64,000 nucleotides of DNA. It comes from Xanthobacteraceae bacterium. Its GTDB lineage: Bacteria; Pseudomonadota; Alphaproteobacteria; Rhizobiales; Xanthobacteraceae. The notes beneath the pieces are model-generated. The model saw only the letters and a program-made list of their open reading frames with translations. It was not told the origin of the DNA and ran no database searches. The stretch spans positions 124,001 through 188,000 of the forward strand of contig JARBUD010000002.1 in the NCBI GenBank assembly GCA_029239875.1. The letters are read 5' to 3'. The position numbers and the translations under genes were made by a program. This document shows positions 38,771-58,349 of the stretch, one piece after another (positions within the stretch are counted from its first letter, which is position 1; every line of letters starts with the position of its first letter).

Positions 38771-39688
38771 TCAGCCGGCCGCGAGGCGGCGGCAGACCTC
38801 GTCGAGCTGGTCGAGCGAGGAATAGCGGATGCGGATCTCGCCGGTTTCGCCACTGTACTTCAGCGTCACCTGCAGGCCGAGCGCGTCGGAGAGCTTGCGC
38901 TGCAGCGCCGCCGTGTCGGCATCGAGCTCCGCCAGAACCTTCGCCTTGCGCGGCGTTTTGCCGGCCGCTTCCGCCTTGGCGACGTTGAGTTCCTGCGCCA
39001 GCGCCTCGATGGCACGCACATTCATGCCCTGCTCGACGATGGCACGCGCCAGCGTCTCCGGATCGTCCTGGGTCAGCAGCGCACGGGCGTGGCCGGCGGA
39101 GAGCCGGCCATCGGCGAGATAGGTCTTCACCGTCTCCGGCAGGCGCAGCAGCCGCATGGTGTTGGCGACATGCGAGCGGCTCTTGCCGATCACCTTGGCG
39201 AGGTCGTTCTGCGAATAACCGAACTGGTCGGAGAGCGCCTGGTAGCCCGCCGCTTCCTCCAGCGGATTGAGGTCGGCGCGCTGCACGTTCTCGATGATGG
39301 CGATCTCGAGCGCCTCGCGGTCATTGACCTCGACGACGACGATCGGCACCTCGTGGATGCCGGCCCGCTGGGCGGCACGCCAGCGGCGCTCGCCGGCGAC
39401 GATCTCATAGGCGTCGCGCTCGCCGGCGACCTGCCGCACCACGATGGGCTGGATGATGCCGCGCTCATGGATGGAGGCAGCGAGATCCTCCAGATCCTCC
39501 TCGATGAAGCTGCGCCGCGGGTTGCGCGGGTTCGGCGCCAGGAAGGCGAGCGGCACCTTCCGCGCACCGCCGGCCGCGGGACGACCGCCGCGGTCGTTCG
39601 CCGCGCCGGCGTCCTCGCTCATGTCGCCGATCAGCGCTGCCAAGCCGCGCCCGAGCCGTGAACGTCCGCCATCTTCCGCCATGGCCAT
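38771..39688 (-). CDS. parB: chromosome partitioning protein ParB
   Basis: This 305-residue protein starts near RSRLGRGLAALIGD. Its N-terminal CTP-binding domain carries PRRSFIEEDLEDLA and the motif VAGERRWRAAQRAG (GERRxRA). The central HTH (NDLAKVIGKSRSHVANTMRLLRLP) binds parS, and a C-terminal dimerisation domain follows. It loads at parS sites, four of which are recognisable in this window, spreads, and organises the origin region for segregation by ParA. It lies 12 bp after parA in the operon mnmE-mnmG-rsmG-parA-parB. Confidence 0.97.
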   Translation of the reverse strand: MAMAEDGGRSRLGRGLAALIGDMSEDAGAANDRGGRPAAGGARKVPLAFLAPNPRNPRRSFIEEDLEDLAASIHERGIIQPIVVRQVAGERDAYEIVAGERRWRAAQRAGIHEVPIVVVEVNDREALEIAIIENVQRADLNPLEEAAGYQALSDQFGYSQNDLAKVIGKSRSHVANTMRLLRLPETVKTYLADGRLSAGHARALLTQDDPETLARAIVEQGMNVRAIEALAQELNVAKAEAAGKTPRKAKVLAELDADTAALQRKLSDALGLQVTLKYSGETGEIRIRYSSLDQLDEVCRRLAAG

Positions 39689-39700
39689 TACGCGCCTCCC

Positions 39701-40561
39701 TTACGCCGCCGGAGCGCGCAAGGCGCGCTCGCGCTGGATTATTTCGGATGCGAGACGAAGATAGGCCTGCGATCCCACGCACTTCAGATCGTAGAGCAGC
39801 ACCGGCTTGCCATAGGACGGCGCCTCGGACACCCGCACATTGCGCGGGATGATGGTCTCGTAGACCTTCTCGCCCATGAACTGGCGCACATCCTCCACCA
39901 CCTGGGCGGAGAGGTTGTTGCGGGCGTCGTACATGGTCAGCACGATGCCATGGATGGAGAGACCGGCATTGAGGGTCGAACGCACCTGCTCGACCGTCTT
40001 CAGCAGCTGCGAGAGACCCTCCAGCGCAAAGAACTCGCACTGCAGCGGCACCAGGATCGCATTCGCCGCCGCCATGGCGTTGACGGTGATCAGGTTCAGC
40101 GAGGGCGGACAGTCGATCAGCACATAGCTGTATTCGACATCGTTCCGTACCTGCAACGAATCCGGCTGGTTGAGCCGCCGGATAGCGTCGCGCAGCCGGT
40201 AGGCGCGATCGCGCTGACTGGCGAGCTCCAGTTCAAGGCCGGAAAGGTCCATGGTCGACGGCGCGATGTGCAGCCGCGGGACCGCCGTCTCGAGAGCCGC
40301 TTCGCGCAGGCTGACCTCGCCGGTCAGCACGTCATAGGTGGAGACGCGGCGGCTGCGTCGATCGATGCCGAGACCGGTCGAGGCATTGCCCTGCGGATCG
40401 AGGTCGATCACCAGCACGCTCTCGCCGATCGCCGCCAGCGCGGTGCCCAGATTGATCGCCGTCGTGGTCTTGCCGACGCCGCCCTTCTGGTTGGCGAGGG
40501 CCAGCACGCGCGGAGCCACGGGGCGCGGCGCATTCGGTGCGAGCGAAACCTCATCGGTCAT
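39701..40561 (-). CDS. parA: chromosome partitioning ATPase ParA
   Basis: This 286-residue protein has the deviant Walker A motif NQKGGVGKTTTAIN (about 24-37), Walker A' LVIDLDPQGNASTG and the switch/Walker B segment YVLIDCPPSLNLIT. It is a chromosomal Soj/ParA that moves ParB-parS complexes by ATP-dependent binding to the nucleoid. It lies between rsmG (30 bp) and parB (12 bp) in the same direction, so the cassette is co-expressed. Confidence 0.97.
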   Translation of the reverse strand: MTDEVSLAPNAPRPVAPRVLALANQKGGVGKTTTAINLGTALAAIGESVLVIDLDPQGNASTGLGIDRRSRRVSTYDVLTGEVSLREAALETAVPRLHIAPSTMDLSGLELELASQRDRAYRLRDAIRRLNQPDSLQVRNDVEYSYVLIDCPPSLNLITVNAMAAANAILVPLQCEFFALEGLSQLLKTVEQVRSTLNAGLSIHGIVLTMYDARNNLSAQVVEDVRQFMGEKVYETIIPRNVRVSEAPSYGKPVLLYDLKCVGSQAYLRLASEIIQRERALRAPAA

Positions 40562-40591: not shown

Positions 40592-41245
40592 CTATGGTGC
40601 CGGCTTCAGCGGCTCAGCCGCCCGGACGATCAGGACATGGCCGCCGGGATCGGTCAGGCTGTCCTTGATCTCGGCTTGAATCTTCCAAGATTTAGATGCC
40701 TCGGTCAATTCGTTATCAACATCTTGTCCCTTCAGGAACAGCCCCGTCGCTCCCTGCGCAAGGAAGGGCGCGGCGAGGTCGATGAGTTTCGGCAGCGGTG
40801 CAAGCGCGCGGGCGGAAACGATCTCGACGCCGGCAGCGATCTTCGGTGCCACTTGCTCGATACGTGACGGCAGCACCGTCACCGGCAGCTCGGCGATGCG
40901 CGATGCTTCCCGCAGAAAGGCCGCCTTGCGACTGTCGCTCTCGACCAAGGTCACGTCGGCGCCCGGCCGCTCGGCCAGAACCGCCGCGATAACGAGGCCG
41001 GGGAAACCGCCGCCCGAGCCGAGATCGACCCACCGCGTCGCCTCGCCGGCGAGCGGCACCAGCTGCAGCGAATCGGCGATATGCCGGGTCCAGACGACCG
41101 GCAGCGTCGCCGGCGCTACGAGGTTGATCGTGCGCTGCCACTTCTCCAGCAGCGCGACGATAGCGACCAGACGGTCCTCTGTTTCACGTGAAACAGGGGT
41201 GAGGCGGAAAGCTCGGGCGCGGTCGGACGAATCGCTGCTGTTCAT
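40592..41245 (-). CDS. rsmG: 16S rRNA (guanine-N7)-methyltransferase G
   Basis: The 217-residue protein (GidB) has the SAM-binding motif [16 protein letters not shown], and [10 protein letters not shown] and [10 protein letters not shown] segments typical of the family. It methylates N7 of G527 in 16S rRNA. Near the N-terminus the peptide PVSRETE is encoded by the perfect palindrome TGTTTCACGTGAAACA, a parS site embedded in the coding region. It is the third gene of the mnmE-mnmG-rsmG-parA-parB set. Confidence 0.96.
41180..41195. promoter_or_regulatory. parS site within rsmG
   Basis: TGTTTCACGTGAAACA is a perfect 16-bp palindrome identical to the widely conserved chromosomal parS consensus. 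It lies inside rsmG codons for VSRET, 619 bp upstream of the parA start on the same transcript. Confidence 0.95.
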
Positions 41246-43193: not shown

Positions 43194-43209
43194 TGATTCA
43201 CGTGAAACA
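43194..43209. promoter_or_regulatory. parS-like site between mnmG and mnmE (first)
   Basis: TGATTCACGTGAAACA differs at one base from the consensus TGTTTCACGTGAAACA. The CACGTG core and right arm are intact. It lies in the 138-bp gap between mnmG and mnmE. Confidence 0.85.
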
Positions 43210-43240: not shown

Positions 43241-43256
43241 TGTTTCACGTGAATCC
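43241..43256. promoter_or_regulatory. parS-like site between mnmG and mnmE (second)
   Basis: TGTTTCACGTGAATCC keeps the left arm and core of parS but has two mismatches in the right arm. It lies 31 bp from the preceding site, an arrangement that suggests a local cluster for ParB loading. Confidence 0.7.
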
Positions 43257-49376: not shown

Positions 49377-50429
49377 TCACAATCCCCGCACCCGCGCGAT
49401 CATCCGCTCGACATGCGCGATCGGCGTCTCCGGGCGGATGCCGTGGCCGAGATTGAAGATGTGCGCCGCGCCGTGGAAATCCTCCATCAGCGCATCGATG
49501 CCACGATCCAGCGCCTCGCCACCGGCGATCAGGGCCAACGGGTCGAGATTGCCCTGCAGCGCGCAGCGCCCGCCCAAAGCGAGCCGCGTGGCGCGCCGCT
49601 CGGCCGTCCAGTCGAGGCCGACGCCGTTCACCCCGGTCGCCAGCACCAGCTCGGTGAGCCCTGACAGCGTCGCCCCCTTCGGAAAGGCGATGATGCGCGC
49701 GCCCGGAACCTGCGCCCGCACGCCGTCGACGATCCGCTTGATCGGCCGGATGGTCCAGCGCCGGAAACTTTCCGGATCGAGCACGCCCGACCAGGTGTCG
49801 AAGATCTGCACCGCATCGGCGCCGGCCTTGAGCTGGCCGACGAGATAGCCGATCGACGCCTCGACCAGCCGGTCGATCAGCGCCTCGAAGAAATCCGGGT
49901 TGATCAGCGCCGCCAGCCGCGCCGGGGCCTGGTCCGGCGTGCCGCGGCCGGCGACCATGTAGGTCGCGACCGTCCAGGGGGCGCCGCAGAAGCCGAGCAG
50001 CGCCGTCTCGCCGGGCAATTCGGCGCGCACATGGGAGACCGTCTCCAGTACGCGGTCAATCTTGGACGGATCGAGATTCTCGCTGAGTGCCTTGAGATCG
50101 TCGGCATCCGTCACCGGCTGGAGCCGAGGGCCCTCGCCTGCTTCGAAGGTAAGGGGACAGCCGAGCGCATGCGGCACGACGAGGATATCGGAGAACAGGA
50201 TCGCCGCGTCGAAGCCGAAGCGGCGGATCGGCTGGAGCGTCACCTCGACCGCATGCTCTGGCGTGTAGCAGAGGGTCAGGAAGTCGCCGGCCTTCTCGCG
50301 CACCTCCCGGTATTCCGGGAGATAGCGCCCCGCCTGGCGCATCATCCAGATCGGCGTGCGTTTCGGCACATGGCCGTCGAGCGCCTGCAGCAGGATGGAT
50401 GAAACCGCCTTGTCCCCCGGCTCTTTCAT
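49377..50429 (-). CDS. hemE: uroporphyrinogen decarboxylase
   Basis: The 350-residue protein has the standard length. It carries the signature [17 protein letters not shown] with the substrate-binding Arg pair, and the second signature [14 protein letters not shown]. The catalytic Asp is in [12 protein letters not shown]. It converts uroporphyrinogen III to coproporphyrinogen III. It is the first gene of a leftward hemE-hemJ-rho group. Its start faces the candidate replication origin, so its promoter lies within or next to oriC. The Shine-Dalgarno (AAAGAAG region) is weak. Confidence 0.97.
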
Positions 50430-50591
50430 ACTTCTTTAATCTCTTTTGAAGGAAGGTAGTCTTTGTTTAGGTGAGGGCATTAGACGGGTTCCTCGCCCCT
50501 CACAAGCCGCCCCCAGCCCGACGCTGGGCCGGGCGTGCGCGGCGATTTGATAAATCAAGCAGAGACAAGGCCTTAAATCCACCGCGGCGGA

Positions 50592-50600
50592 TTATCCACG
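50592..50600 (+). promoter_or_regulatory. DnaA-box-like site 1
   Basis: TTATCCACG matches the consensus TTATCCACA except at the last base. It is the best-scoring box in the origin candidate. Confidence 0.65.
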
Positions 50601-50629
50601 CAGTTCGCGGCGAGGGCTTTGATTCCGAT

Positions 50630-50653
50630 CACAGGGGCGAGCCCTGTGGAGGA
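50630..50653. promoter_or_regulatory. inverted repeat with a weak DnaA box in oriC
   Basis: CACAGGG (50630-50636) and CCCTGTG (50642-50648) are perfect 7-bp arms. The right arm runs into TGTGGAGGA (50645-50653), a DnaA-box complement with two mismatches. It also carries the first copy of the AGCCCTGTGGA direct repeat. Confidence 0.45.
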
Positions 50654-50727
50654 CGGGACATGCTTTCCCCAGACCGGACTTGCTAACGCCGCATCGGCGT
50701 GGCTTGTTCCATCGCCATGCACAGCCC

Positions 50728-50736
50728 TGTGGATGA
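50728..50736 (-). promoter_or_regulatory. DnaA-box-like site 2, overlapping the DUF299 start codon
   Basis: TGTGGATGA matches the DnaA box complement TGTGGATAA with one mismatch. It includes the ATG at 50733, so DnaA binding here could affect expression of the downstream gene. Confidence 0.55.
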
Positions 50737-51602
50737 TCGGCGTGACTGACGCCTCCCGCCCGTCCGAAAGCTATTACCACCTGCATCTCGTGTCGGATTC
50801 GACCGGCGAGACGCTGATCAGCGTCGGGCGCGCGGCGGCGGCGCAGTACGACGTGAAGCCCATCGAGCACATCTACCCGCTGGTGCGCACCCAGAAGCAG
50901 CTCGACAAGGTCATTCAGGCGATCGACGAATATCCCGGCATCGTGCTGTACACGCTGACCGAGCCGGAACTGCGCAACCGGCTGAAAACCTATTGCCTCA
51001 CCAACGGCATACCGGTTTTGTCCGTCCTGGCACCGGTGGTGCGGCTGTTCCAGGCCTATCTCGGCGGGGCACCGGCGCCGCGCGTCGGCGGCCAGCACCA
51101 GCTCGACGGCGATTATTTCCGGCGCATCGACGCGATGAACTTCACCGTCATGCATGACGACGGCCAGCATGTGGACGGGCTGGAGGCGGCGGATGTGGTG
51201 CTGCTCGGCATTTCCCGCTCGTCGAAGACGCCGACCAGCATCTATCTCGCCAATCGCGGCATCAAGGCCGCCAATATACCGCTGGTGCCGAGCATCCCTG
51301 TGCCGCCGGGCCTGTCGGAATTGAAGCGGCCGCTGGTGGTCGGGCTCGTCGCCAGCGCCGAGCGGGTGGTGGAGATCCGCCGCAACCGGCTGCTCGGCCT
51401 CAATGCCGCGCAGGCGGTCGACGCCTATACCGACCGCGAATCGGTCGCGGAGGAGATCGCCTTCTCCCGTCGGCTCTGCGCCAAGCATGGCTGGCCGATG
51501 ATCGACGTTACCCGCCGCTCCATCGAGGAGACGGCGGCCGCCATCATCGGCCTCTTGCAGGAGCACCGGCGCAAGCTGTCCGAGGACTCAAGTGTCGGAT
51601 AG
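50733..51602 (+). CDS. DUF299 pyruvate,phosphate dikinase / PEP synthase regulatory protein
   Basis: The 289-residue protein has the DUF299 length. It has [16 protein letters not shown] at the N-terminus, the P-loop-like [18 protein letters not shown] near 155 and the C-terminal [13 protein letters not shown] block. Family members are ADP/Pi-dependent kinase-phosphorylases that switch PPDK or PEP synthase off and on. ATG 50733 is the most likely start, but GTG 50742 is possible; in either case the start lies in the origin region. Its neighbour across the gap is hemE, as in Caulobacter, where the equivalent gene is RP001. It overlaps maf by 11 bases. Confidence 0.92.
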
Positions 51603-58333: not shown

Positions 58334-58349
58334 CGTTTCACGTGAAACC
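58334..58349. promoter_or_regulatory. parS-like site near hslU
   Basis: CGTTTCACGTGAAACC has the perfect 14-bp core GTTTCACGTGAAAC; only the two outermost bases differ from TGTTTCACGTGAAACA. It lies 15 bp beyond the end of hslU and 7.6 kb from the candidate origin, on the opposite side from the other parS sites. Confidence 0.85.

Follow-up and report, generated by a model that had tools for sequence, protein, structure and literature searches.

The DNA analyzed here, hereafter the window, is a stretch of 64,000 nucleotides corresponding to positions 124001-188000 of contig C61, which is 361,548 bp long and belongs to a draft genome of 5.07 Mb in 71 contigs. It contains two divergent genes, one that we take from its translation to be hemE, and one (ppsR) for a DUF299 kinase-pyrophosphorylase, whose matching record in a plasmid collection (H6) is annotated kinase/pyrophosphorylase. 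The short region between them, which a sequence-only reading had proposed as a replication origin, is the subject of this report. The features that matter are the following, in window coordinates.

38771-40561, minus strand: partition genes parB (38771-39688) and parA (39701-40561), from ORFs; both names are presumed from the translations
41180-41195 (contig C61 165180), no strand: perfect parS, TGTTTCACGTGAAACA (motif scan)
43194-43209 (contig 167194), no strand: parS-like site, one mismatch (motif scan)
43241-43256 (contig 167241), no strand: parS-like site, two mismatches (motif scan)
49377-50429, minus strand: hemE, flanking marker gene (ORF; homologues found by tblastn)
50425-50450, no strand: AT-rich block TTCATACTTCTTTAATCTCTTTTGAA at the hemE edge, conserved, with two overlapping one-mismatch CtrA-like matches
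50430-50741, no strand: predicted oriC, intergenic between hemE and ppsR (50430-50732 in the earlier reading)
50430-50470, no strand: AT-rich end (68% AT), candidate DNA unwinding element
50479-50483, plus strand: ATTAG, invariant in 17 loci; at this alignment position the sister genera have the right half of their first CtrA-like site (TTAACGGTTGATTAA)
50510-50516, plus strand: CCCCCAG, possible weak DnaA-type position (alignment)
50573-50576, plus strand: TTAA half-site (GAGA-CAAGGCC-TTAA); at this alignment position the sister genera have their second CtrA-like site
50592-50600, plus strand: DnaA box TTATCCACG, one mismatch
50621-50625, no strand: GANTC (CcrM-type methylation) site, the sole one in the gap (motif scan)
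50645-50653, minus strand: DnaA box TCCTCCACA, two mismatches, its TGTGGA core invariant in 17 of 17 loci
50666-50671, plus strand: TCCCCA, W-box-type weak DnaA site, kept in 16 of 17 loci
50715-50723, plus strand: CCATGCACA, DnaA-like, forming an inverted pair with the next box
50728-50736, minus strand: DnaA box TCATCCACA, one mismatch
50742-51602, plus strand: ppsR/DUF299, flanking marker gene (ORF)
58334-58349 (contig 182334), no strand: parS-like site, two mismatches (motif scan)

The intergenic region and its gene neighborhood

The gap was initially given as 303 bp (50430-50732; contig C61 174430-174732), and these bounds are tenable, as hemE starts at 50429 and the ppsR frame can start with an ATG at 50733. 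We aligned 17 loci, namely the window and 16 others from the Ancylobacter clade (L003-L016, L019 and L026); two duplicates were set aside, L029 (the window itself) and L030 (apparently identical to L010, A. polymorphus). GTG 50742 is present in all 17 loci, whereas ATG 50733 is missing or out of frame in six (L005-L008, L014 and L016); the GTG is therefore the better ppsR start and the gap more likely covers 50430-50741, so that the last DnaA box (50728-50736) becomes intergenic. Two of the aligned loci, L014 (filed as Bosea) and L015 (filed as Xanthobacteraceae bacterium), fall within the Ancylobacter clade in the tree. The closest named ppsR proteins are that of A. moscoviensis (L004, 93% identity) and those of other named Ancylobacter (82-90%), which places the genome in Ancylobacter or very close by.

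Around the gap lie genes that, from their translations, we presume to be rho, hemJ, maf, aroE, coaE, dnaQ, secB, mnmE and mnmG, besides parAB. The gene context is indeed that of the Caulobacter origin, as had been claimed: hemE and the COG1806/DUF299 gene are divergent and flank an intergenic region. This arrangement, with hemE adjoining ppsR, was found at 51 of 56 loci, and at 68 of 85 once more loci were added, both counts including the window itself (as L029) and L030, which seems to duplicate L010. The 85 related loci comprise 26 earlier ones and 59 of 60 ppsR places, a place at a contig edge in G030 having been left out; in record G013, the ppsR match starts at base 420. One of the five misses among the 56 loci, L036, is a circular record cut at the hemE-ppsR place. 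The search found no hemE adjoining ppsR at 17 of the 85 loci. At 15 of the 85 (L050, L051, L143, L145, L147, L148, L150-L153, L155-L158 and L162), the 0.8 to 1.5 kb fetched upstream of ppsR held hemJ without hemE, so the classical pair of origin markers seems to be split there.

The gap has a GC content of 59%, whereas most 10-kb blocks of the contig are at 66-71%. Its AT-rich end, noted earlier, is confirmed: the AT content reaches 68% over 50430-50470, a short stretch of 41 bp, versus 41% for the gap as a whole. Of the direct and inverted repeats that had been announced, the inverted pair at 50715/50728 stands, while the best direct repeat (14 nt, 13 of them matching, at 50640/50723) merely consists of two DnaA sites, and the remaining repeats, 9 to 12 nt long, may be due to chance. 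Between 50300 and 50900 there is no match with up to one mismatch to WATCANNNNTTR, the IHF consensus scanned here, which is stricter than the published form WATCAN5WTR. A BLAST search of the gap against phages gave no match. The same search against plasmids with 50300-50900, a query that takes in both gene edges, gave 27 records; none of the 20 listed covers 80% of the query, and the matches listed lie mostly in the hemE edge, while a few are split in two or fall in the ppsR edge.

GANTC sites number 228 in 68 hemE-ppsR gaps, versus 84 expected from base shuffles, in sequences that are related; judged from these sequences, this suggests that CcrM-type methylation sites are favored in hemE-ppsR origins. 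As the gap of the window has a single GANTC, the enrichment in its relatives says little about it.

DnaA-type sites and their conservation

Near-consensus DnaA boxes had been reported in the gap, and they are present: two carry one mismatch and one carries two, and no perfect TTATCCACA occurs in the gap. Close to ppsR, the two DnaA-type sites form the inverted pair ATGCACAG/CTGTGGATGA. The position aligned to CCCCCAG 50510 reads TCCCCA in L014-L016 and TCCACA in the sister genera.

Across the 17 loci, mean column agreement is 12.3/17 for the gap and 15.2-16.7/17 for the five DnaA-type sites. Conserved runs, defined as at least four columns with agreement in at least 15 of 17 loci, number 14 between 50425 and 50735; five of them are of DnaA type (TTATCC, TGTGGA, TCCCCAG, ATGCACAG and CCTGTGGATG), and nine are not (TTCATACTT, CTTT, ATTAG, GTTCC, CCCCAG, CACAG, CTTGC, TGGCTT and TTCC). 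The ATTAG, GTTCC and CCCCAG blocks, at 50479-50516 in the window, are kept in 15 to 17 of the 17 loci. When DnaA-type hexamer cores (TCCACA or TCCCCA on either strand) were counted in the gap plus 8 bases, the 17 loci gave 57, where 500 shuffles averaged 5.9 and never exceeded 16; since these loci are related, the counts are not independent trials. The window alone has three cores versus 0.32 in shuffles, a number reached by 0.2% of 2000 shuffles.

Box density was considered as proof of an origin and rejected, counts genome-wide and, with up to two mismatches, in the contig being not unusual. With up to one mismatch, the whole contig contains 13 DnaA boxes, two of them in the gap, and one other 303-bp place also has two; with up to two mismatches, the gap has three and other places in the contig reach four. 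Genome-wide, boxes with up to one mismatch number 193, fewer than the 405 of a reversed control pattern, and about two chance pairs within 294 bp are expected. Such chance-level counts prove nothing by themselves, so the case for an origin rests on place and conservation.

The best-known point of comparison is the Caulobacter crescentus origin, Cori, whose features are described in PMC1914354, PMC4285127 and PMC4468827. According to the parts of these papers available to us, Cori lies between hemE and the COG1806/DUF299 gene, that is, between the same flanking genes as in the window, and shares with the gap the lack of a perfect TTATCCACA, a TCCCCA site of W-box type, an AT-rich stretch and an origin-linked partition locus. 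The same parts give Cori five sites for CtrA and one for IHF, along with two TGATCCACA G-boxes and five W-boxes, whereas the gap of the window has no perfect CtrA site, no TGATCCACA, a single TCCCCA and no match to the IHF consensus. The earlier suggestion that initiation may use a low-affinity DnaA set, as in Caulobacter, is compatible with the sequence, which combines the absence of a perfect box with a conserved TCCCCA.

Partition sites, strand composition and the origin

Allowing up to two mismatches, four distinct parS-like sites exist in the whole 5.07-Mb draft, and all four lie 7 to 10 kb from the gap; a reversed control gave none. Strain 501b (KB899087.1, a 5.08-Mb scaffold) has five parS-like sites, and the homologous gap is likewise less than 10 kb away from every one of them, again with no control site.

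Strand composition was examined in 501b with 40 blocks of 20 kb, 20 per arm, split at the gap. The arms differ in mean GC skew (+0.0074 versus -0.0175; Mann-Whitney p 0.00025) and in the orientation of GGGNAGGG (52 forward and 21 reverse, versus 16 and 56). The best single split falls at 3.84-3.94 Mb, about 80 to 185 kb from the gap at 4.024 Mb, and a finer scan over 3.87-4.21 Mb (ten further blocks, with noisy skew) showed no sharp GC-skew switch; the strand-composition switch in 501b is thus placed only to about 0.2 Mb. On the contig of the window, where skew is very shallow, cumulative GC skew reaches its minimum at 220,956, which is 46 kb away from the gap; for GGGNAGGG the counts are 8/16 left of the gap and 15/9 right of it, with the minimum at 195,030. 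Fourteen other words, four of which are single forms of GGGNAGGG, showed no clear polarity switch at the gap. Own-contig GC skew and GGGNAGGG were rejected as stand-alone origin locators because they are too shallow. Given the loosely placed switch in 501b and the distant minima in the contig, skew agrees with the neighborhood, not with a base pair. The sequence-only reading had named a skew inversion elsewhere as evidence against it; the opposite arms of 501b favor the gap, and a very shallow minimum 46 kb off is not clearly such an inversion. In Methylocystis SC2, GC skew likewise failed to locate the origin, according to the accessible part of the report (PMC3794950).

Azorhizobium caulinodans ORS571, of the same family, has the same gene cluster and a homologous gap, and its origin was predicted from GC skew, this gene cluster and GGGNAGGG (PMC2443382, in the part available to us). 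The gene cluster, the footprint, the parS clustering and the opposite arm polarity in a relative all support the proposed origin, and we hold it to be very probable that the gap is the chromosomal oriC of an Ancylobacter-type genome. The chromosomal oriC of Sinorhizobium meliloti is reportedly also a Rhizobiales origin beside hemE (Sibley et al., 2006). Bacteria of this kind commonly have their origin in this position, and in this sense the gap is a textbook feature.

The gap might instead be nothing but a divergent hemE/ppsR promoter on which DnaA acts as a transcription factor, the origin being elsewhere nearby or at dnaA. Caulobacter DnaA does act as a transcription factor as well, as stated in the part of PMC4468827 available to us, and the conserved blocks lacking resemblance to DnaA sites may be promoter signals; however, the DnaA-type sites are several and spread over about 145 bp instead of forming one operator. 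The distant skew minimum in the contig also fits an origin elsewhere, but all parS-like sites of the draft are located around the gap, the two contigs that carry dnaA genes, C52 and C17, have none, and the predicted origin of A. caulinodans lies in the same gene cluster. We consider a promoter without an origin highly improbable.

The C17 gene encodes a second complete DnaA-like protein (L002; C17:10027-10512, minus strand), 63% identical to the C52 DnaA, and the ORF directly upstream looks like GapR/DUF2312. More than one Bac_DnaA match was seen in five of ten relatives searched, the extra matches being weaker. The C17 gene may belong to a mobile element, a second replicon or assembly contamination (2.35%).

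The gap as oriC is, in our view, a well-supported prediction of an ordinary alphaproteobacterial origin, from which DnaA binding, unwinding and firing are inferred as follows. DnaA-ATP would bind the few, mostly weak and partly inverted sites of the ppsR-proximal half (50592-50736), then spread cooperatively and open the AT-rich hemE-proximal end (50430-50470), where helicase would be loaded and from which two forks would leave; ParB bound to the parS cluster within 10 kb would then segregate the new origins.

CtrA-like sites in Ancylobacter and its sister genera

The CtrA-like TTAA-N7-TGAA noted earlier is present at 50436-50450, and it is kept in only four of the 17 loci (the window, L004, L013 and L026), which makes it weak as a sign of CtrA control in the genome of the window. 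A second match, TTCA-N7-TTAA at 50425-50439, lies partly inside hemE and is kept in 14 of 17 loci, being lost in L014-L016. Its TTCAT contains the hemE start codon of the window, and the block could be conserved merely for that; this explanation is not supported. TTCATACTT shows agreement in 16 to 17 of the 17 loci in every column, and in six of 17 loci (L003, L009-L012 and L019; the frame check excludes L006, whose hemE is partly masked) the ATG within it does not share the frame of hemE. As the block is kept in these six loci, it is conserved as DNA for some reason.

The origin might be directly repressed by CtrA acting at the hemE edge, in the manner of Caulobacter. The genome encodes CtrA (419 bits, for a curated cut-off of 350), the two hemE-edge matches account for two of the six CtrA-like positions with up to one mismatch in the contig, and TTCA-N7-TTAA is widely kept. 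Yet none of the eight perfect TTAA-N7-TTAA sites of the genome falls in the gap, and these eight are no excess over the 11 of a reversed control; TTAA-N7-TGAA is rare among the loci, even TTCA-N7-TTAA is lost in three of them, and the CtrA of Brucella is reported not to bind its origin, in the accessible part of PMC2877005. Repression of this kind is, in our opinion, unlikely here; control of the origin by CtrA or CcrM in the species of the window is, more broadly, possible.

In the sister genera, two TTAA-N7-TTAA-like sites lie 93 to 105 bp apart in the hemE-ppsR gap at nine of nine loci from five genera (L031-L038 and L041); both are perfect in L035, L036, L038 and L041, and the other five loci combine one perfect site with one carrying one mismatch. 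In A. caulinodans (L036), the perfect sites are 105 bp apart, whereas the gap of the window has none, and no such pair was found in Ancylobacter-clade gaps. A tree built on hemE+ppsR from 52 loci groups the nine in a single clade with support 1.0, and the Ancylobacter clade is its sister (0.999). Perfect sites number 10 to 17 in each of five counted sister-clade genomes, versus 6 to 19 for the reversed control, so there is no consistent genome-wide excess; for the sites listed, the Poisson probability is 3e-7 to 8e-7 for two perfect sites in one gap (G006, G013 and G057) and 7e-4 for the one in the G060 gap. Among the 68 hemE-ppsR gaps, 16 have at least one perfect CtrA-like site. Outside the nine-locus clade, single perfect sites occur at or near the hemE edge in L043, L138, L146 and L149, and L025 and L028, from other families, have three overlapping CtrA-like matches there.

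The alignment shows that Ancylobacter gaps retain half of each sister-clade site (ATTAG 50479 and TTAA 50573 in the window). Near mid-gap, L016 has a perfect CtrA-like site, and L014 and L015 have one-mismatch sites, that of L015 aligning with the second site of the sister clade. These half-sites and mid-gap sites make a loss of CtrA-like sites in Ancylobacter plausible, as far as sequence goes; the paired sites may have eroded there or may never have formed, in which case they would have been gained in the sister clade alone. We propose, tentatively and as something we do not yet favor, that CtrA control of origins exists in Rhizobiales and was gained, then lost or replaced, within this one family, the Ancylobacter sites having decayed to half-sites.

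CtrA consensus sites are listed in predicted Wolbachia and Rickettsia origins in the part of PMC1914354 available to us, and later work detected CtrA binding next to the Hyphomonas neptunium origin, as stated in the accessible part of PMC7200025. In the accessible parts of the open-access literature, we found no report of such paired CtrA sites at Rhizobiales, Azorhizobium, Xanthobacter or Agrobacterium origins, and a literature search for the replication origin of Ancylobacter gave no match. Only the CtrA comparison might surprise a specialist. The analysis places the predicted origin of an Ancylobacter-type chromosome to within about 300 bp, with a clean DnaA-type footprint, and Ancylobacter and its sister clade offer a natural comparison on the question of whether the initiation of replication in Rhizobiales is gated by CtrA.
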